Origin: Bacillota bacterium
GTDB lineage: Bacteria; Sysuimicrobiota; Sysuimicrobiia; Sysuimicrobiales; Segetimicrobiaceae
Length of the DNA stretch: 53,190 nucleotides
Assembly: GCA_021324975.1 (NCBI GenBank)
Contig: JAJPIA010000055.1
Span: forward strand, 1 to 53,190
Direction: 5' to 3'
The notes beneath the pieces are model-generated. The model was not told the origin of the DNA. It searched no databases and was given only the letters and a program-made list of their open reading frames with translations. The first letter of the stretch is position 1; every line of letters starts with the position of its first letter. The translations under genes and the position numbers were made by a program. This document shows, piece by piece, positions 32,102-42,625 of the stretch.

Positions 32102-32282
32102 CCCGGGCCGCACGCGGATCGTCGCCCGGCCCCGCGCCCGCATCGCGGCACGCACGGGGGAGGTGCCGGTACCCGCGCCGTCCGAGCCCGCGCGAGCACC
32201 GCTGCGTGGGATGGAAAGGGACGTGCCCGCGACGCCCCGAAAGGACGTAGCCTGAACGCGCCGCACCATGGGGGAGGTTGAC

Positions 32283-33932
32283 ATGCGCATCGACGACACG
32301 CCAGTCCATTCCCGACGCGCTCGGAGGGGCCTGTCGCGCCGCGAGCTGCTGCGCATGGCCGCGGCGGGCGGCGCCGCGGCCGCGGGCCTGGGGTCGCTCT
32401 CCGGACGTCTCGACCGCGCGTGGGCGGCGGCCCCGGTCGGGAAGCGCGGCGGAGTGTGGCGGATGGCCATCCCGGGCAACCCCACCGCCTACCCCATCAC
32501 GATTCCCGGGAAGCTGGTGGACATCCTCGTCGACAAGACGATCTTCAGCACGCTCGTCAAGTACGAGCTCCGCAACGGGGCCATCCAGGTCGTCCCCGAC
32601 CTCGCACTCTCCTGGAGCGCCAACGCCACTCTCACCGAGTACACGTTCCGGCTGCGCCCCGGGGTGAAGTGGCACGACGGCCAGCCGTTTGGGGCCGGGG
32701 ATGTGAAGTTCACGATGGACACCGTGCTCAACCCGAAGGTCAACGCGGGGATGGCGGGCGTGGTGTCGGCGATCGCCCGCACGACCGTGGTCGATCCATC
32801 CACCGTGAAGTTCACGCTCAAGTATCCCTACGCGTCGTTGCCGGTGATCCTCGGGTACAACATCGCGATCGTGCCGAAGCACCTGCTGGAGGCGCAGGAT
32901 CCGAATCAGCCCGTGCAGTTCATCCGGAATCCCGTCGGCACGGGGCCGTTCAAGTTTAAATCGTTCACGCAGGACAGCTACCTCGAGGTTTCCGCCAACC
33001 CCGAGTACTACCTGGGCCCTCCGATGCTGGACGGGATCGAGTTCAAGGTGATCCCCGATGGGAACACGCGGCTGGCCCAGTTGCGCTCCGGCGAAATCGA
33101 CTTCACGGTCATCGATCCACCGCAGGTGGCGGCGGTCCAGGGAGCGCGCGGCATCGAGGTCCGGCGGGCGCCTCAGGTCGATTACTACTTCTTTGCCATC
33201 AACCACGACCTCCCGAAGTTTGCCGACGTCCGCGTCCGCCAGGCGCTGACCTACGCGATCGACAAGCAGGCCATCGTCAAGAGCATCCTCAAGGGCGACG
33301 GGCGGCCCGCGACGGGCCCGATCAACCCGCTGCTGGGCGCCTTTTACAATCCCAACGTGGAGACGTACCCGTACAACCCGGAGAAGGCGCAGGCGCTGCT
33401 CGCCGAGGCGGGGTGGAGAAAGGGCGCCGACGGGGTCCTCGCGAACGCGAAGGGCGAAAAGTTCACGCTGCTCTTCAACGGCCCGAAGGGGTACCCGGTG
33501 ATGGAGCAGGTCATGACGTACGCCCAGCAGCAGTACCAGAAGCTCGGGTTCGACGTCACGCTCGATATCGTGGAATGGCCCGTCCATCTCCAGAAGTACC
33601 ACGACCGCAAGTACGACCTATTGATGGAATGGTGGATCACGCCGCCGGACCCGGATCTGTACGACCACTACTACAGCGCCTCGCCGGACAACTGGTGGGG
33701 CTACAAGAACGCGGCGCTCGACCAGATCCTCATCAAGGCCCGCAGCGAGCCGGACCGGCAGAAGCGCGTGACGCTGTACCATGAGATCCAGGCGATGCTG
33801 GCGAAAGACGTGCCGCTCGTGTACTTGTACTATCCGCCGGAACTGCAGGCGATGAGCTCCCGCACGCAGGGGCTGCCGCTGATCGGATATCGGGACGCGC
33901 TGACGTGGATGTCCAAGGTGTGGCTCGCGTGA
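32283..33932 (+). CDS. Family 5 extracellular solute-binding protein (dipeptide/oligopeptide type), Tat-exported
   Basis: A 549-residue SBP_bac_5 protein. The leader contains a twin-arginine motif (GLSRRELLRMAAAGG), so it is exported folded through Tat. The mature part starts near residue 50 and contains the family signatures TFRLRPGVKWHDGQPFGAGD, RNPVGTGPFKF and RVRQALTYAIDKQAI. Such proteins bind di- or oligopeptides, nickel or sugars. Two Dpp-type permeases follow but no ATPase genes. The start ATG is preceded by GGGGAGG. Neighbouring peptidase-like genes support a peptide substrate. Confidence 0.93.
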   Translation: MRIDDTPVHSRRARRGLSRRELLRMAAAGGAAAAGLGSLSGRLDRAWAAAPVGKRGGVWRMAIPGNPTAYPITIPGKLVDILVDKTIFSTLVKYELRNGAIQVVPDLALSWSANATLTEYTFRLRPGVKWHDGQPFGAGDVKFTMDTVLNPKVNAGMAGVVSAIARTTVVDPSTVKFTLKYPYASLPVILGYNIAIVPKHLLEAQDPNQPVQFIRNPVGTGPFKFKSFTQDSYLEVSANPEYYLGPPMLDGIEFKVIPDGNTRLAQLRSGEIDFTVIDPPQVAAVQGARGIEVRRAPQVDYYFFAINHDLPKFADVRVRQALTYAIDKQAIVKSILKGDGRPATGPINPLLGAFYNPNVETYPYNPEKAQALLAEAGWRKGADGVLANAKGEKFTLLFNGPKGYPVMEQVMTYAQQQYQKLGFDVTLDIVEWPVHLQKYHDRKYDLLMEWWITPPDPDLYDHYYSASPDNWWGYKNAALDQILIKARSEPDRQKRVTLYHEIQAMLAKDVPLVYLYYPPELQAMSSRTQGLPLIGYRDALTWMSKVWLA

Positions 33933-34010: not shown

Positions 34011-34958
34011 ATGGCCGGATACCTTCTTCGCCGCCTCGCTCAGGCCGCCGTGCTGCTGTGGGTCGTCAGCCTCGTGACGTTCGTGCTGATCCACGCCGCG
34101 CCGGGTGGGCCGGCCATGCTCCAGAACCCGGACCTCAACCGAGATCAGATCGCGCAGTTCCGCGCCAATCTCGGGCTCGACGACCCCATCCCGGTGCAGT
34201 ACCTGCGGTGGCTCCGCGCCGCGCTCCACGGCGACCTGGGACGCAGCTACAATACCGTGGAGTCGGTCGGCCGCCTGCTCGCGACGCGCCTGCCGAACAC
34301 GCTGCTGCTTACGGGCATCGCGCTCGGACTGTCGCTCGCCGCGGCGATCCCGCTCGGGGTGGTGTGCGCGACCCGCCGCAACACCGCGCTCGACCGGATC
34401 ATCGCGGGCACCACGTTTCTCGGCATCTCCACCCCGGTATTCTGGCTGGCGATCGTGCTCATCGTCGTGTTCTCGGTGCAGCTCAGAGTGCTGCCCGCCG
34501 GCGGCATGTACCAAGTCGGCGCCGCGTTCTCGCTGGGCGACCGGATCCGCCACCTGCTCATGCCCGTGTTCGTGCTCACGATCGCGAACCTGGCGGAGAC
34601 GACACGCTACACGCGCTCGGCGATGATCGGCGCGCTCGGCGAGGACTACGTGCGCACGGCGCACGCCAAGGGCTTGTCTGGGCCCATCGTGCTGTTCCGC
34701 CACGCCTTGCGCAACGCGCTCATCCCCGTCGTGACGATCATCGGCGTGTACCTGCCCCGCGCGGTCAGCGCAACGGCCATCACCGAGACCGTGTTCGCGT
34801 GGCCGGGGATCGGTCAGCTCGCCGTCCAATCGACGTTGACCCGCGACTACCCCGTGCTGGTCGGGGCGACGCTGGCGGTCGCGGTGTTCGCCGTCGGCGG
34901 CAGCCTCCTCACGGATCTGGCGTACGGGCTCGTCGATCCCCGGATCCGCCTTGGCTAG
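34011..34958 (+). CDS. dppB: ABC transporter permease, DppB/OppB type
   Basis: A 315-residue permease with six predicted helices. The N-terminus YLLRRLAQAAVLLWVVSLVTF and the EAA-like loop (DYVRTAHAKGLSGPIVLFRHALRNALIP) are those of peptide/nickel permeases of the DppB group. It pairs with the overlapping dppC product to form the channel. No Shine-Dalgarno sequence is visible before the ATG, so the upstream hairpins may matter for its expression. Confidence 0.92.
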   Translation: MAGYLLRRLAQAAVLLWVVSLVTFVLIHAAPGGPAMLQNPDLNRDQIAQFRANLGLDDPIPVQYLRWLRAALHGDLGRSYNTVESVGRLLATRLPNTLLLTGIALGLSLAAAIPLGVVCATRRNTALDRIIAGTTFLGISTPVFWLAIVLIVVFSVQLRVLPAGGMYQVGAAFSLGDRIRHLLMPVFVLTIANLAETTRYTRSAMIGALGEDYVRTAHAKGLSGPIVLFRHALRNALIPVVTIIGVYLPRAVSATAITETVFAWPGIGQLAVQSTLTRDYPVLVGATLAVAVFAVGGSLLTDLAYGLVDPRIRLG

Positions 34959-35865
34959 GGACGCGGGCACGCTCGAGAAGGCATCCCCGCTCCGGCGCGA
35001 GGGCGCCGGCGCGGCCCGGGGCCCTCGCCGCGCCGGATGGCGGCGGTTTCGCGGCAACCGGATGGCGGTGGCGTCCGCCGTCTTTCTCGTGGGCATGTAC
35101 GTGGTCGCGGCCGCGGGCCCGCGGATCAGCCCTTACGGGCCGAACGCCGTGGACATCTTGAACACCAATGCGCCGCCCTCGCCGGCGCACTGGCTCGGCA
35201 CCGACGAGAACGGCCGGGATGTGCTCGCGCGCCTCATCGCCGGTGCGGCGACGACGATGACCGTCGGCCTGATCGCGATGATCATCGCGGTCGGCATCGG
35301 CGCCGCGGTGGGGAGCCTCGCGGGCTATCTCGGCGGGTGGGCGGACACCGTGCTCATGCGGCTCACCGACGGGATGCTGGCCATCCCCTACATCTTTTTG
35401 CTGCTCGTGATCGTCGCGGTCTTCGGCGCCAGCTTCCGCACCATCATCGTCGCCATCGGCGCCATCAGCTGGATGGTCGTCGCGCGCATCGTGCGGGCCG
35501 AGGTGCTCCGCTACCGCGGATTGGACTTTGTCCACGCCGCGCAGGCGCTTGGGGCCACGCCGGCGCGCATCCTGACGCGCCACATCATCCCGCAGACGGT
35601 GCCGTCGCTGTTGGTGGCGGCCACCTTCGGCGTCGCGAACGCGATCCTGTTCGAATCGGCGCTCAGCTATTTCGGCCTCGGCATCCCGCCGCCCCAGGCC
35701 AGTTGGGGCAACATGCTGAGCAATGCCCAGGCCTACGTGTGGGAGAATCCGCGGCTTCCGATCTATCCCGGCTTCCTGATCCTGTGCACCGTGCTGGCGT
35801 ACAACTTCCTCGGCGACGCGCTGCGGGACGCGCTGGACCCGCGGTACCGCGAGAGCAACGTGTAA
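34951..35865 (+). CDS. dppC: ABC transporter permease, DppC/OppC type
   Basis: A 304-residue permease with a cytoplasmic N-terminal extension, then the typical RRFRGNRMAVASAVF helix, HWLGTDENGRDVLARLIAGA and the EAA loop (DFVHAAQALGATPARILTRHIIPQT). The TTG start overlaps the dppB stop by eight bases. The usual dppD and dppF ATPase genes do not follow; the next gene is an M28-fold hydrolase. The ATPases must come from another locus or be shared. Confidence 0.92.
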   Translation: MARDAGTLEKASPLRREGAGAARGPRRAGWRRFRGNRMAVASAVFLVGMYVVAAAGPRISPYGPNAVDILNTNAPPSPAHWLGTDENGRDVLARLIAGAATTMTVGLIAMIIAVGIGAAVGSLAGYLGGWADTVLMRLTDGMLAIPYIFLLLVIVAVFGASFRTIIVAIGAISWMVVARIVRAEVLRYRGLDFVHAAQALGATPARILTRHIIPQTVPSLLVAATFGVANAILFESALSYFGLGIPPPQASWGNMLSNAQAYVWENPRLPIYPGFLILCTVLAYNFLGDALRDALDPRYRESNV

Positions 35866-35904: not shown

Positions 35905-37674
35905 ATGAGCCGTGTAGCAGAGATCACCGCGTGGAGCGACGACGAGCTCGAGCGCCGGGTGCTCGACGCGGTGTCGCCCAAGACGCCGTGGCGGGTGGTC
36001 GAGCAGTTCGCCAAGCTCACCCGCCTGTCGGGGTCCGCGGAGGAGCGGCGTGCGTTCGACCTGCTGGCCGGGCAGCTCGAGCGGATCGGCGTGCCGTACC
36101 GCCTGCACGAGCCCGTCTGCTTCATCTCCATTCCGGGGCCGTCGAGCGTCCGGTGCAACGGCACGGCGTACCGCGCGAAGACGCCGGCGATGTCCGTGTC
36201 CACCGGCGGCGAGGAAGTCTCGGGCGAGTTGGTGTACGTGCCAGGCGCCACGGGCGAGAGCGCCGGCGACGTGTTTTCGGCCGGCGTGGAGATCGACCGG
36301 GCGCGCGCCGCCGGCAAGGTCGTCGTCACCGAAGGGATGGCGTCGCCGGGCAAGGTCAAGGACCTGATGGCGTCCGGCGCGCTCGCCGGGATCTTCATCA
36401 ACCCGGGCCAGAACATCCACGAGGGCATCTGCACGACGATTTGGGGCACCCCCGACCTCGACTCGGCGGCCCGGCAGCCGACGATTCCGGTCGTCGCGGT
36501 CAACCGCCCCGACGGCGAGGCATTGATCCGCGACGCCGGGCGCGGCAGCCGGGTGGCGATCGCGACCCGGCTCGACACGGGGTGGCGGCCGATTCCCGTC
36601 CTCGTGGCGGAGATCCCCGGGCGGCAGGCCGCCGACGAGTTCGTCCTGCTGCACGGACACCTCGATGGGTGGCACTACGGCGTCGGCGACAACGCGACGG
36701 GCAACGCGGCGCTCCTCGAGCTGGCCCGCGTCTTCTGGAAGCACCGCCGCCGGCTCGCCCGCACGCTGCGCATTGCGTGGTGGTCCGGGCACTCGCACGG
36801 CCGCTACGCCGGGTCGACGTGGTACGCGGACCAGAACGCGATCGAGCTGGCCCGGTCGTGCGTGGCGCAGGTCAACTGCGATTCACCCGGCTGCCGCTGG
36901 GCGACGACGTACGATCACCTGACCGCCATGAGCGAGACCGTCCCGCTCGTCGACGCCGCGATCCGCGCCACGACGGGCCTGACCCCGAGCCCCGAGCGGC
37001 CGCCGCGCGCCGGAGACTACTCGTTCAACGGCATCGGGGTCTCGTCGCTCTTCATGCTGAGCTCCACGATGGCCGAGGCCGACCGGGCGGCCAAGGGCTA
37101 CTACGCCGTCGGCGGCTGTGGCGGCAACATCGCCTGGCACACGGAGGACGATCTGCTGGAGATCGCGGACAAGGACAACCTGCTCCGCGACATGCGCGTG
37201 TACGCCGCATCACTGCTCCGCCTCCTCAACGCGCCGCTCCACCCGCTGGACTGGACGCGCACGACCGCCGAGTTTCGCGCGACGCTGTCGGACTACGAGG
37301 GGGCCGCCGGCGGCGGAATCTCCCTCGACCCGGCCCGGGCCGCGCTGGACCGGCTGGAGGCCGCGCTCGACGCGTGGTACGCGAAAGCGCCGGCGCGCGG
37401 TACGGCGCGGACCCCGGCCGTCAAGCGCTTCAACGCCGTGCAGCGCCGGCTCGGGCGTCTCTTGATCCCGGTCAACTACAGCCGCATGGCGCCGTTTTGG
37501 CACGATCCCGCGGTGAACGTCCCACCGCTGCCCGACTTGGCGCCCGCCGCGGGATTGGCCCGCGCGGCGGGGGACGCCGCGCGCGAAGGCACGCTGCGGG
37601 CGCATCTCACGCGGGGACAGAACCGGCTCGTGTGGGCGCTGGAGCAGGCGCGCGAGATCGCCGGCGGCGTCTAA
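35905..37674 (+). CDS. M28-fold aminopeptidase-like protein with inserted PA-type domain and an EE-to-SH active-site change
   Basis: A 589-residue cytoplasmic protein without a signal peptide. An N-terminal region, a PA-like insertion (about 100-220) and the M28 zinc-peptidase core (about 225-430) are followed by a helical C-terminal part. Metal-binding blocks are HGHLDGW (His252), VGDNATG, NCDSPG and AWHTEDD (His412). The catalytic EExGLxGS motif is replaced by SHGRYAGS (Ser297, His298). The general base and one ligand are thus altered, and its paralogue at 37687 has the same change. AAAGGAG precedes the ATG. Location behind a peptide permease suggests it acts on imported peptides or conjugates, but the chemistry is open. 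Confidence 0.85.
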   Translation: MSRVAEITAWSDDELERRVLDAVSPKTPWRVVEQFAKLTRLSGSAEERRAFDLLAGQLERIGVPYRLHEPVCFISIPGPSSVRCNGTAYRAKTPAMSVSTGGEEVSGELVYVPGATGESAGDVFSAGVEIDRARAAGKVVVTEGMASPGKVKDLMASGALAGIFINPGQNIHEGICTTIWGTPDLDSAARQPTIPVVAVNRPDGEALIRDAGRGSRVAIATRLDTGWRPIPVLVAEIPGRQAADEFVLLHGHLDGWHYGVGDNATGNAALLELARVFWKHRRRLARTLRIAWWSGHSHGRYAGSTWYADQNAIELARSCVAQVNCDSPGCRWATTYDHLTAMSETVPLVDAAIRATTGLTPSPERPPRAGDYSFNGIGVSSLFMLSSTMAEADRAAKGYYAVGGCGGNIAWHTEDDLLEIADKDNLLRDMRVYAASLLRLLNAPLHPLDWTRTTAEFRATLSDYEGAAGGGISLDPARAALDRLEAALDAWYAKAPARGTARTPAVKRFNAVQRRLGRLLIPVNYSRMAPFWHDPAVNVPPLPDLAPAAGLARAAGDAAREGTLRAHLTRGQNRLVWALEQAREIAGGV

Positions 37675-37686
37675 GGGAGCGCGGGC

Positions 37687-39423
37687 CTACCGGAACCCCG
37701 CCAGCGCGAGGCCGGCCTCGCGCGTCGCGTCACGGAGCGCCGTGGTCACGCGGTTCGCCTCGCGTACCGTCTGCGCCCGGAGGAACCCGTACGCGGGCTG
37801 ACCGTGCAACTCCGGCAGCCCGGCCGCCTTGCCGAGGCCGGCCAGGAGGGACTCACCGGTCGCGCGCATGATCGGCGACCACTCCGCGGGGTCGTGCTGG
37901 AAGCGGCCGGCCCGGCTGTAGAGGACCGAGGTGAGCACGCGGCCGAGCCGGAGCAGCGCGTCGTTCAGCGGGCGGACCGCGGCGCCGCGCGCGGTCTCCT
38001 TCGCGGCCTCGATCTGCGCCGCGGCCTCCTCGAACGCGCCGGCCGCGGCGAGAGCGTCCCCGAGATCGAGGTGGCCGCCGGCCCGCTCCTGGATGCGCGT
38101 GAGCAGCCCGCGGCACTCGGCGGCGGTATCGGCGTGGTTGAGCGGGAGCACCGCGGCGTTGGCCAGGTCGACAACCGCGGTGAGCGAGACCCGCGTGTCG
38201 AGGGCCAGGATGTTCACGTCGGCCTTGTCCAGCGTGTCGAACTCCGTGTGCCACCACCAGGCGTTGGCGGAGCCGCCGGTCCACGGACGGCGATCCGGGT
38301 GATCGTCCGGGAGAAACGGGTACGTGGAGAGGGACGCCACCCCATTTGCCAGAAACGACTGATCCGCCGCCCTCGACGGGCGGTGTACCGTGATCCGGGT
38401 CTGTCCCGTCACGCGCGTGATCACGCTCCGGCAGAACCGCTCGATCTCGGCCGTCGTATGGCGAGCGACGTATGTCGTGGCGCCGCGCACGCCGGGCGAG
38501 TCGATGTTGTGATAGGCGACGCAGTGGTCGGCGAGATCCTGAAAAAACTCGTCCGCGTACCAGGTGGAGCCGGCGTATCGCCCGTGGGAGTGGCCCGGCC
38601 ACCAGCACAACCGCACGCTCCGCCGAAGACGTGCGCGGTGCTCCCACAGGATGCGGGCCATCTCGAGGAGGCACGCGTCCCCGGTCGCATTGTCCGTGAC
38701 GCCGACGTCCCACGAGCAATAGTGCGCGCCGATCAGGACGAAGAGGTCGGGCTCATCGGTCCCGGGGATCCGGACCTCCGGCAGGAGCGACGGCACCCAC
38801 CCCGTGCGGACCTCGGTGGTGATCCTGACGCGCACGGGCCCGCCGCGTTCGAGGCGCCGCCTCAACGCCTCACCGCTTTCGTGGTTGACGGAGACGACCG
38901 GGATCTCTGGCAGCCGCTCGAGCTGATCGAGCCCCGGGGTGCCCCAGATCGTGGTCCCGATCATGTTGTGGATGACCCGGTCCTCGTTGGCAAAGATCAC
39001 GGCGGCGCAGCCGGCCTGGCTGGCCCGCAGGATCGTGACCGGCGTCGCCACCCCATCGATGAGGGTCGCCCGCCCCGCGCCGGGGCCGAGGTCCGCGCTC
39101 GTGACGGCGGCCAGCTCCGCGACGATCCCGCCGGGATCGGTGCTGCGGCCGAACGAGTGCGTGATGCACCGCAGCCGCACCGGCTCGGGTTCGAGCACCT
39201 CGAGCGTGGCCTGGACCGGATAGCTCAGGTACGCGGGCAGCTCGTGCACGGTGACGGGGATGCCCGCGTCGCGCATCTGGCCGGCGATATAGGTTGCCGC
39301 GCTCGCCTCCCCGGGGCCGCCCGTGTCACGGCGTACGGCGGCGAACCACTCCAGCGACGCCCGCAGCCGGTCGGTACTGACCGCCTCGGTCGCGGCCTCT
39401 ACTGCGCTCGTGTCCGTGCTCAC
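37687..39423 (-). CDS. M28-fold aminopeptidase-like protein, paralogue of the convergent gene, same EE-to-SH change
   Basis: A 578-residue protein of the same architecture as the product of 35905-37674. Blocks include IGAHYCSW (His234), VTDNATG (Asp244), NIDSPG (Asp309) and WWWHTEFD. The motif PGHSHGRYAGSTWYAD again has Ser279-His280 where M28 peptidases have Glu-Glu. The HxD aspartate next to the first ligand is also replaced (HYC). The two genes are tail to tail with 12 bases between them. Conservation of the same unusual motif in diverged copies argues for a functional subfamily rather than decay. Confidence 0.85.
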   Translation of the reverse strand: MSTDTSAVEAATEAVSTDRLRASLEWFAAVRRDTGGPGEASAATYIAGQMRDAGIPVTVHELPAYLSYPVQATLEVLEPEPVRLRCITHSFGRSTDPGGIVAELAAVTSADLGPGAGRATLIDGVATPVTILRASQAGCAAVIFANEDRVIHNMIGTTIWGTPGLDQLERLPEIPVVSVNHESGEALRRRLERGGPVRVRITTEVRTGWVPSLLPEVRIPGTDEPDLFVLIGAHYCSWDVGVTDNATGDACLLEMARILWEHRARLRRSVRLCWWPGHSHGRYAGSTWYADEFFQDLADHCVAYHNIDSPGVRGATTYVARHTTAEIERFCRSVITRVTGQTRITVHRPSRAADQSFLANGVASLSTYPFLPDDHPDRRPWTGGSANAWWWHTEFDTLDKADVNILALDTRVSLTAVVDLANAAVLPLNHADTAAECRGLLTRIQERAGGHLDLGDALAAAGAFEEAAAQIEAAKETARGAAVRPLNDALLRLGRVLTSVLYSRAGRFQHDPAEWSPIMRATGESLLAGLGKAAGLPELHGQPAYGFLRAQTVREANRVTTALRDATREAGLALAGFR

Positions 39424-39568: not shown

Positions 39569-40684
39569 CTATGCATGGCCCGCGAACGTCTCTTTGCGCA
39601 AGGTGTACTTGTCGACGAGCGGCTCGACGACGGCGACGCCGAGCCCCGGGCCGGAGGGGACGTCGACCGTGCCGTCCGGGTTCACCTCGAACCACGGGTC
39701 GATGATGTCCTCGTGAAAGTAGCGCCGGCTGGCGCCCAGGTCGGCGGGCAGCGTGAAGTTCGGCAGCGCCGACAGCGCCACGTTCGCCGCGCGCCCCACG
39801 CCCGTTTCCAGAAACCCGCCGCACCAGACCGGCGCGCCGCGTTCCCTGCAGAGATCGTGGCAGCGCAGCGCCGCGTCGAGGCCGCCCATGCGCGCCGCCT
39901 TGATGTTGATGATGCGGCACGCGCCGATGTCCAGCGCCTTGCGGGCATCGTCGGGTGAGCAGATCGACTCGTCCAGGCAGAGCGGGGTGCGAAGCGCCCG
40001 CTGCAGGGTGGCATGGTCGATGATGTCGTCGTGGTCCAGCGGCTGCTCGATCATGAGCAGATCGTAAGCGTCGAGCGACCGCAGCTGCTCGGTATCCTCG
40101 AGCGTGTAGGACGTGTTCGCGTCGACCTGCAGGCCGATGGCGCCGAACTGCCGGCGAATCGCCCCCACGACATCCACGTCGAACCCGGGCTTGATCTTGA
40201 TCTTGATGCGCTGGTAGCCTTGCGCCAGCCACGTCTCGACGCGTCGCAACACTCCATCTACTGTCGGCTCGATGCCGACGCTCATCCCGACGGCCACGCG
40301 CGCGTGCGTGGCGCCGAGCGCCTGCGCGAGGGAGAGGCCCCGGGACTGCGCGTACACGTCCCATGCCGCGGCCTCCAGCCCCGCCTTGGCCAGGTAGTTT
40401 CGGCGGATCGGCTGGAGCCACGCGGCGACCTCGCGAGGATCTGAGAAGTCGCGGTCGAGCACGCGGGGGATGGCGAAGTCTCGGAGAATCGACCAGGCCG
40501 TGTCGACCGTCTCCTCTTTATAGTAGGGCTTGACCGTCACCGGTGACTCACCCCACCCTGCGAGACCCCCGGCCCAGACGCGGACGAGGAGACAATCCTT
40601 GGAATCGTCTCGATCCACCGAGGTCTCAAAGGGAAAGACGTACGGCATCTGCAACCGGCGCAGCTCGACGCGCTCGATCTTCAC
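39569..40684 (-). CDS. Enolase-superfamily N-succinylamino acid racemase / o-succinylbenzoate synthase (MenC type)
   Basis: A 371-residue MLE-subgroup enzyme. The paired lysines (RIKIKIKPG and NIKAARMGG) and the metal ligands in QVDANTSY, MIEQPLDHDD and LCLDES are complete. This group makes o-succinylbenzoate in menaquinone synthesis and/or racemises N-succinyl amino acids. No men genes are nearby. It overlaps a GNAT gene by four bases and sits in an operon with an M42 peptidase, which matches the N-succinyl amino-acid racemase pathway turning D- into L-amino acids in Geobacillus. That function is therefore more likely. Confidence 0.88.
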   Translation of the reverse strand: MKIERVELRRLQMPYVFPFETSVDRDDSKDCLLVRVWAGGLAGWGESPVTVKPYYKEETVDTAWSILRDFAIPRVLDRDFSDPREVAAWLQPIRRNYLAKAGLEAAAWDVYAQSRGLSLAQALGATHARVAVGMSVGIEPTVDGVLRRVETWLAQGYQRIKIKIKPGFDVDVVGAIRRQFGAIGLQVDANTSYTLEDTEQLRSLDAYDLLMIEQPLDHDDIIDHATLQRALRTPLCLDESICSPDDARKALDIGACRIINIKAARMGGLDAALRCHDLCRERGAPVWCGGFLETGVGRAANVALSALPNFTLPADLGASRRYFHEDIIDPWFEVNPDGTVDVPSGPGLGVAVVEPLVDKYTLRKETFAGHA

Positions 40685-41580
40685 GGCGTGCCTCCTTGGG
40701 CTTCCATGACGTACGCGATGCGCGGTGCGCGGGCGCCCGCCGCGCGGACGACCGCGGTGGCGGCGTACCCCCGCGCGAAGTAGTGCCGGAAGACGTCGCG
40801 CGTCGCCTCCCGCCAGCGCAGCGCGGTTCCCAGGCGCTCGGCCTTGAGGCGGCCGAGGTCCGGCGGGATCTCGACGAGGACGCGTGCCTCCAAACGCGAT
40901 AGGTCCGGCGCCGCGGGCTCAGCGGCCCACGCGTCCGCGTCCCCCGCGTGCGCGGCGGCCGCAAGGGCCCAGGGGAGATCGTCCACGCGCGGCGCGTGCG
41001 GCGCCTCGCCGGAAAGCCTGGCGAGCACCCGCGGCGAGCGGAGCCACCAGTCGACCTCGAACCGGTCGCTCGGAAGGCCCCGGTTGATCGCGTCCGGCAT
41101 CGGGCCGTAGTAGTCGACGTAGTATCGTGACGCGACGACGCCGAGCCGGTCGAAGTTGAAGCGGGCGTTGCGCGCCTGCAACGGATCATAGGTCCAGACG
41201 ATGCGATCGACGCCCGCGGCGATGGCGGCCTCGCGTTGGGCCCACTTCAGGCGGGCCCCCAGGCCGGCGCTCTGGTGGGCCGGCAGCACGCCGAGCATGT
41301 GCGAGTACCAGAGCGGCCCGTCCGCGCGCCGACCCGGAAACGCGTAGGCGAAGCCTACCAGCCCGCCGTCCTCGTGGAACGCGCCCAGCACCTGGCCGCC
41401 CCCGGAGATCACCGCGACGAACTGGGCAAACGGGACGATCTCGTCGGCGCCCATGCCCCACACGGCGGCCTGCAGGCCTTCGCAGCGCCGAAGGGTAGCG
41501 GGATCGGTGATAGGCCGGATGGTGTAGCCGGCCGGGGGTGCCGGCGCCGGCGGGACGGGTGCGGGGTCGCGGTCAGCCAA
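40681..41580 (-). CDS. GNAT-family acyltransferase (COG3375 type), possible D-amino acid N-succinyltransferase
   Basis: A 299-residue protein with an N-terminal GNAT domain (about 18-160). The acyl-CoA loop is GVLPAHQSAGLGARLKWAQ; TYDPLQARNARFNFDRLG follows, typical of the uncharacterised group found beside menC-like genes. A second, less conserved half (about 170-299) has no clear fold. In the known racemase pathway a GNAT enzyme succinylates D-amino acids before racemisation, and the four-base overlap with the racemase gene supports that role. It overlaps the M42 gene by eight bases. Confidence 0.82.
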   Translation of the reverse strand: MADRDPAPVPPAPAPPAGYTIRPITDPATLRRCEGLQAAVWGMGADEIVPFAQFVAVISGGGQVLGAFHEDGGLVGFAYAFPGRRADGPLWYSHMLGVLPAHQSAGLGARLKWAQREAAIAAGVDRIVWTYDPLQARNARFNFDRLGVVASRYYVDYYGPMPDAINRGLPSDRFEVDWWLRSPRVLARLSGEAPHAPRVDDLPWALAAAAHAGDADAWAAEPAAPDLSRLEARVLVEIPPDLGRLKAERLGTALRWREATRDVFRHYFARGYAATAVVRAAGARAPRIAYVMEAQGGTP

Positions 41581-42625
41581 GGAGCCGGTGCGCCTCCTCC
41601 ACGAACGCGGTGACGAGCCGGACCGCCCCCTCCACGTCGCTCACGCGGAGCAGGCTGAGCGGTGTGTGAATGTACCGGCACGGCACCGAGACGCCGCCGG
41701 CGAGCACGCCGGCGCGGTTGAGGTGGATCGCCCCGGCGTCGGTGCCGCCGTAGAGCGGCGTTTTGAGCTGGCACGGGATGCCGCGTGCTGCGGCGATGCG
41801 CTCGAGCGCGCGGATGAGGTGCGGCCGCACGATGATCGAGCGGTCCGCGACCGAGATCGCGGGGCCGGCGCCCACACGGGTGACCCGTCGGGCGCCGCCG
41901 ACGCCGGGCACATCCGCGGCGACGGTACCCTCGATGGCGAGCGCGATGACAGGATCGAGCTGGTACGCGGCCGTGCGCGCGCCACGCAGCCCGACCTCTT
42001 CGGACACCGCGAAGGTGCACGCCACGGTCAGTTCCGGCGTGCGGCCGCGGAGCGCCGCGAGCACCTGCACGAGGACCGCGCACCCGACGCGATCGTCGAG
42101 CGCCTTGCCGAGCACGTGGCCGTCCGGCCACCGCTCGAACGGGTACGCGAGCGTCGCGGGGTCACCGACGCGAACGCCGCGTGCGGCCACGGCCTCGGCC
42201 GAGTCGGCGCCGATGTCGATAAACAGCGACTCCGGGGGCAATGGCTTGGCGCGTTCTTCGGTGCTGAGGAGGTGCGGCGGCAGCGTGCCGATCACGCCGC
42301 GGTGCAGCGCGCCATCCTGCGCGCGGACCGTCACGGCCTGCGCCGGGAGAATCCGCGCGTCCCAGCCGCCGATCGTGGCGAAGCGCAGAAATCCCGCGTC
42401 CTCGACGTGGTTGACGATCAGCCCGATCTCGTCCATGTGCGCGTCGAGCATCAAGACGGGCGCCGTGCGGCCGCGGCGGACGCCGATGAGGTTGCCGAGC
42501 GGGTCTGTCCGCACCTCGTCGGCAAGGTCGGCGACCAGCGGCTGGAGCACACGACGCACGTCATCTTCAAAGCCCGATACCCCAAATGCGTTGGACAGCG
42601 ATTCCAGTAGCGTCACCGTATCCAT
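41573..42625 (-). CDS. M42 family metallo-aminopeptidase (FrvX/glutamyl aminopeptidase-like)
   Basis: A 350-residue dinuclear-metal aminopeptidase of the TET/FrvX type. Metal ligands and catalytic residues are all visible: LDAHMDEIG, GKALDDRVG, VSEEVGLRGA (Glu-Glu), the glutamate in ALAIEGTVAAD and the final IHTPLS histidine. M42 enzymes form tetrahedral dodecamers that trim peptides in the cytoplasm. In this operon it is first, ahead of the GNAT and racemase genes, and could also act as the desuccinylase. The intact EE motif contrasts with the two M28-like proteins next door. Confidence 0.93.
   Translation of the reverse strand: MDTVTLLESLSNAFGVSGFEDDVRRVLQPLVADLADEVRTDPLGNLIGVRRGRTAPVLMLDAHMDEIGLIVNHVEDAGFLRFATIGGWDARILPAQAVTVRAQDGALHRGVIGTLPPHLLSTEERAKPLPPESLFIDIGADSAEAVAARGVRVGDPATLAYPFERWPDGHVLGKALDDRVGCAVLVQVLAALRGRTPELTVACTFAVSEEVGLRGARTAAYQLDPVIALAIEGTVAADVPGVGGARRVTRVGAGPAISVADRSIIVRPHLIRALERIAAARGIPCQLKTPLYGGTDAGAIHLNRAGVLAGGVSVPCRYIHTPLSLLRVSDVEGAVRLVTAFVEEAHRLLG

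Follow-up and report, generated by a model that had tools for sequence, protein, structure and literature searches.

Two convergent M28-fold genes and their neighbours

The analysed window, a stretch of 53,190 nucleotides from a Bacillota bacterium, carries two convergent open reading frames, P1 and P2, whose stop codons are separated by 12 bp. Both products exceed the gathering cut-off of PF04389 (21.3 bits), P1 with 52.6 bits and P2 with 58.1 bits, which bears out the original prediction of a convergent pair of M28-fold genes, and a PA domain was recognized in P1 by a profile match of 24.2 bits. A binding protein and two permeases are encoded upstream of the pair, and an NSAR/OSBS-type racemase, a GNAT protein and an M42 family protein downstream:

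32268-33932, plus strand: peptide-type (family 5) substrate-binding protein with a twin-arginine-like leader (PF00496, 336 bits; nearest solved structure AppA)
34011-34958, plus strand: peptide/nickel ABC permease, OppB type (PF00528, 133 bits)
34951-35865, plus strand: peptide/nickel ABC permease, OppC type (PF00528, 111.7 bits)
35905-37674, plus strand: P1, M28-fold protein of HS type, 589 aa (ORF, PF04389, PA domain, AlphaFold, Foldseek)
37687-39423, minus strand: P2, M28-fold paralogue of HS type, 578 aa, with HxC instead of HxD (ORF, PF04389)
39569-40684, minus strand: MR/MLE enolase-superfamily protein, N-succinyl/N-acyl-amino-acid racemase or OSBS type (TIGR01928, 340.6 bits)
40681-41580, minus strand: GNAT acyltransferase-like protein (PF00583, 27.5 bits)
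41573-42625, minus strand: M42 aminopeptidase family protein (PF05343, 307 bits)

The 39569-40684 protein passed the TIGR01928 cut-off of 200.65 (NSAR/OSBS family) and its nearest solved relatives are N-acylamino acid racemases, while a PDB search with the GNAT protein gave no match. The racemase, GNAT and M42 genes (39569-42625) stay together as a block of three in sister genomes, and with P1 added this block recurs in G001, G002 and G005. P2 is missing beside P1 in G002 (L161) and G005 (L160); thus, the P2 slot is variable. An NSAR, an acyltransferase and a deacylase make up a route converting D- to L-amino acids, and the block may represent such an N-acyl-amino-acid racemization route, in which P1, P2 or the M42 protein would be the deacylase.

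The overall identity of P1 and P2 is 39%, and the longest identical run between them is a block of 15 residues, GHSHGRYAGSTWYAD. Inspection of the N-terminus of P1 by eye revealed no obvious signal peptide. Neither protein matched the TIGR01879/PRK09290-type models of HyuC carbamoylases (M20), and none of the curated NCBIfam models names their family, the members of which are labelled "M28 family peptidase" in RefSeq-derived records.

The catalytic Glu pair is replaced by His-Ser

Homologues collected from genome contigs, relatives and plasmids were aligned in 158 rows, where the canonical rows read GEEQGLL-GS, five rows carry [GA]HE[TN]G (HE type) and 139 rows carry HS at the catalytic pair (HS type), nearly all of the latter in the form GHS[THQS]GRYAGS. 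The change is EE to HS accompanied by a one-residue insertion past the following Gly (RFILWGGEEQGLL-GS / LWMGHETGTMISS / AWWSGHSHGRYAGS). Profile-profile comparison with hhalign gave the same register (RTLRIAWWSGHSH versus RTIRFILWGGEEQ), and a second comparison agreed with it (CLWMGHETG versus ILWGGEEQG). Since the profile comparisons and the alignment share this register, the general-base Glu corresponds to His296 and the zinc-ligand Glu to Ser297 of P1. The positions concerned are:

36787-36831, plus strand: P1 motif GHSHGRYAGSTWYAD, residues 295-309
36790-36795, plus strand: P1 H296-S297, which hhalign places opposite the EE pair of general base and zinc ligand (139/139 HS rows have H and S)
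38551-38595, minus strand: P2 motif GHSHGRYAGSTWYAD, residues 277-291, with H278-S279 at 38587-38592
36658-36660, plus strand: P1 H252, metal ligand (136/136 rows)
36688-36690, plus strand: P1 D262, bridging metal ligand (136/137 rows; one D262G)
36880-36882, plus strand: P1 D326, metal ligand (139/139 rows)
37138-37140, plus strand: P1 H412, metal ligand (138/138 rows)
37015-37017, plus strand: P1 D371, Asp of the HS and HE types (139/139 HS rows, 5/5 HE rows and 0/9 of the EE rows having a residue there)
38716-38718, minus strand: P2 C236 (AHYC), replacing the second-shell Asp of HxD (by alignment; position 254 in P1 numbering)

The original prediction had read the replacement as EE to SH, which is one residue off; this assignment was ruled out by the two profile alignments. 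The His of "SH" is residue 298, which varies in the 139 HS rows (T in 85, H in 48, Q in five and S in one). The first Gly of GHSxG is Ala in four rows. The general base, the first E of EE, which is required of an active M28 peptidase, is His in 139/139 HS rows, and four of the five residues of the M28 ligand set (H, D, E, D, H) are kept, the E being Ser in 139/139. P1 and P2 belong to M28 by homology and fold but are without two of the catalytic hallmarks of M28 peptidases. The annotation "M28 family peptidase" is probably misleading, because both catalytic Glu residues are gone family-wide.

Remaining metal ligands and other fixed residues

The retention of the other metal ligands in both paralogues was correctly anticipated: H252, D262, D326 and H412 (P1 numbering) are present in all HS rows, apart from rare gaps and the single D262G row. 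D371, D309 and R300-Y301/W306 mark the HS family, the first two being common to the HE type. The PA-domain stretch IHxGICTTIWGxPDLD, R300, Y301, W306, D371 and S327 are invariant or nearly so in HS rows, as would be expected of a working active site.

It had been considered that a nearby Glu might take the general-base role, which would make the replacement a trivial motif shift. Only three Glu columns are more than 80% conserved in HS rows, E272, which also occurs in canonical M28 proteins, E344 (132/139) and E414 (117/139). As far as conservation can tell, the invariance of H296 and the lack of any new invariant Glu among the 139 HS rows argue against such a shift, although E344 might still fill the role.

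HxC replaces HxD in the P2-type proteins of the window and of L083, L040, L048 and L100. The metal site of the P2 type appears to be altered further, since this substitution comes on top of HS.

Predicted structure

P1 was modelled in an AlphaFold run that took in 50 window and contig sequences (pLDDT 94.9, pTM 0.94). Foldseek ranked human GCPIII and GCPII first (E ~1e-28), followed by the transferrin receptor, and these matches place the modelled fold in the three-domain glutamate carboxypeptidase II type. In the sequence-profile comparison the 2ek8 aminopeptidase scored best among solved structures (E = 4.8e-29), and GCPIII came next. The tentative assignment of GCPII-like domains is based on a whole-length structural match and a weak C-terminal profile match, with no match to the Pfam TfR-type dimerization domain. 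In the model, H296-S297 are part of the loop that connects strand 286-293 with helix 302-310.

GCPII, GCPIII and the transferrin receptor appear to share with P1 the protease, PA and C-terminal helical regions (TM-score on the query ~0.75-0.81), whereas P1 is devoid of their membrane anchor and N-terminal extension. E424/E425 of GCPII are H/S in P1, the identity is ~16% and the residues around the site are different. The order of metal ligands is the same in the M28 aminopeptidases (2ek8 type, Aeromonas, Streptomyces), from which P1 differs by the replaced EE pair, the cytoplasmic context and ~130 extra C-terminal residues.

Distribution, descent and selection

The HS family was found in Chloroflexota/Thermomicrobiota, Armatimonadota, Bacillota, Deinococcota, Alphaproteobacteria and haloarchaea. 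Repeats of the window genes are among the 139 HS rows, of which 113 are mutually less than 90% identical, and H296 and S297 are fixed down to the lowest pairwise identity among them, 26%. A degenerate DNA pattern of the motif matched 30 of the 43 genomes from the window's phylum and three of 115 Alphaproteobacteria, one of the three being the genome used as the centre, and the reversed-pattern control produced zero matches.

In the tree, HS and HE each have one origin (support 78/92 and 100/96, respectively) and are joined with 100/98, even though the rooting is weak because the outgroup consists of three canonical rows only. This topology is compatible with a single origin of the HS motif. 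P1 clusters with P1 proteins of Thermomicrobiota and P2 with rhizobial P2-type proteins (94/86), with which it has HxC for HxD in common. As the tree puts P1 and P2 in different old clades, the HS family appears to be old and both proteins inherited the motif. The shared motif had been taken for a change in two paralogues; a recent parallel change is ruled out, since the motif is ancestral and fixed throughout the family.

The sister group of the HS family consists of the five HE rows, with His at the general-base position and the zinc-ligand Glu kept, so the likely path led from EE through HE to HS. HE-type relatives (C34/L006; L137-L139) resemble the HS type in the general-base His, D371 and overall length but retain the zinc-ligand Glu and lack the R300-Y301 and (mostly) the W306 signature. 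One HE-type relative (GHETG) is encoded in the window's own genome at G000:C34 (L006, L164), adjoining IclR, a racemase homologue, an MDR reductase and M20, and it is possibly an evolutionary intermediate residing in the same kind of cluster. The same genome contains two further HS paralogues at G000:C117 (L002, L003), one of which has SSAWYAD, not GSTWYAD.

The dN/dS ratio of P1 is ~0.14 (dN 0.028 and dS 0.198 against L018, the P1 of which is 95% identical to that of the window; 0.097 and 0.667 against L156), and that of P2 is ~0.22. The proposed subfamily with an altered metal or catalytic site is supported; it is widespread and under purifying selection.

Gene clusters of the HS family

Gene context was counted in the 53 contig loci that span 15 kb or more. 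A peptide permease occurs in 42 of these, a binding protein in 41, IclR in 32 and an MDR reductase in 30, while HyuA or HyuB is present in 24 loci, an Asp/Glu-type (hydantoin/allantoin-type) racemase in 20 and either of them in 34. The nearest relatives of the linked racemase are allantoin and hydantoin racemases; HyuA and HyuB fall into Pfam's hydantoinase A and B families, and among NCBIfam models caprolactamase fits them best, with a score below its cut-off. The Bacillota loci have other partners in their place, namely amidases, a racemase and M20 together with a Na+/solute symporter and a sigma-54 activator. L025, L030 and L070 are among the loci showing no pathway partners, and a Deinococcus cluster with an HS family gene also contains a DUF1028 gene (L129:6719-7456). 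The clusters have a catabolic composition, comprising a peptide ABC importer or Na+ symporter, an IclR or sigma-54 regulator, a racemase, HyuA/HyuB, and amidases or M20.

Fourteen alphaproteobacterial genomes that carry the gene served as a control and contain 74 HyuB copies in ~74.7 Mb; HyuB was predicted within ~10 kb of ~0.3 of the 14 HS family genes and observed at 12, an excess that reflects operon conservation rather than independent events, because these genomes were picked from known loci and share ancestry. HyuA, HyuB, HyuC and a racemase are combined in ATP-dependent hydantoin operons. HyuC has the same partners there (HyuA, HyuB and a hydantoin-type racemase) but belongs to another family (M20), shows no sequence match to P1 or P2 and keeps the Glu base in its site; M20 and M28 belong to a distantly related metallohydrolase clan. 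A HyuC-type carbamoylase was absent from the examined flank in 31/31 Hyu-containing loci. A literature search for reports of M28 proteins in hydantoin clusters yielded nothing useful. Clusters of cyclodipeptide-oxidase-like genes are reported to be enriched in hydantoin racemases, dipeptide/oligopeptide ABC transporters and peptidases (PMC11055893), and they resemble the present ones in this racemase, transporter and peptidase content, with no M28 protein named there. On the whole, the neighbouring genes suggest that the HS family acts on amides, hydantoins or N-acyl amino acids.

Proposed function

In terms of the Aeromonas aminopeptidase, we take the H97/D117/D179 site to be intact and the D117/E152/H256 site to be without E152. 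The corresponding site of P1 (H252/D262/D326) would hold the catalytic metal, whereas the second one (D262, E to S, H412) would be weakened or empty, and His296 in place of Glu would serve as the general base activating the metal-bound water. A "functional E151H" Aeromonas aminopeptidase appears as a title in the reference list of PMC4320195, and judging from this title a His in the place of E151 still allows turnover. The kept H/D/D site, the lost ligand Glu and this precedent led us to propose a His-base amidohydrolase with a presumably mono- or weakly di-metal site. That P1 and P2 are cytoplasmic, metal-dependent enzymes of this kind, acting in hydantoin- or N-acyl-amino-acid-type catabolism with a substrate suggested by context, has in our judgement a little less than an even chance. 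Candidate substrates are small amides, for example N-carbamoyl- and N-acyl-amino acids or short peptide-like amides, which the linked transporter would import. Ring opening or racemization by the linked HyuA/HyuB or by the hydantoin-type or N-acyl-amino-acid racemase would precede cleavage by the HS protein, which would stand in the place held by HyuC, the M20 carbamoylase, in the classical hydantoin operon. In a more far-reaching form, which we consider rather unlikely, the family would be a new class of M28-fold hydrolases with a single-metal (or non-zinc) site and a His general base, catalysing a non-peptidase reaction on N-carbamoyl/N-acyl amino acids or ring-opened lactams and substituting, from another family, for HyuC in bacterial and archaeal hydantoin-type operons.

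Plain peptide use would fit equally well, because the importer is of peptide type and an M42 protein is encoded in the window. The loci devoid of pathway partners also count against the amidohydrolase reading. P1 and P2 might be ordinary exopeptidases or dipeptidases with a shifted mechanism, in which His296 is the base and imported di- or oligopeptides are degraded in a peptide-catabolic neighbourhood. The peptide-type ABC importer in 41-42 of the 53 long loci, the M42 or M20 peptidases, membrane dipeptidase and S9 peptidase of some clusters, and the E151H enzyme, called functional in its title, are in accordance with this. Nevertheless, the ligand Glu has been lost as well, the site is surrounded by invariant residues other than those of canonical M28 proteins, and the recurrent HyuA/HyuB, hydantoin-type racemases and amidases are unneeded for ordinary peptides, which makes this alternative unlikely. 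The HS proteins are probably not ordinary peptidases but amide-cleaving enzymes of a distinct type.

Loss of both catalytic Glu residues could also mean a pseudoenzyme like the transferrin receptor, which has the same fold, with P1 and P2 acting without catalysis as a binding, regulatory or structural partner; the E424A and E424M variants of GCPII are inactive mutants according to PDB titles. However, four metal ligands and many active-site residues are invariant, the His and Ser never vary, selection is strongly purifying and the genes sit in operons of catabolic enzymes, so we hold this to be quite improbable. A serine amidase, with GHSxG as a GxSxG-like element, Ser297 as nucleophile and a neighbouring His as base, would agree with the presence of GHS[THQS]G in nearly all rows, the unvarying Ser297 and the modelled position between a strand and a helix, but is very improbable in view of the retained metal ligands, the Ala for the first Gly in four rows, the helix beginning ~5 residues past the Ser and not at once as in a nucleophile elbow, and the HE relatives, which already pair the same His with a kept Glu, so that the GxSxG look arose stepwise from GEExG.

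The HE and HS types offer natural steps for studying the remodelling of a two-zinc peptidase site, and the laboratory His-base mutant E151H, as far as its title describes it, has a natural counterpart in them. Judging from the operons, bacteria of soil and sea, plant-associated rhizobia and haloarchaea may degrade hydantoin-like or N-acyl amino acids by a so far undescribed pathway.
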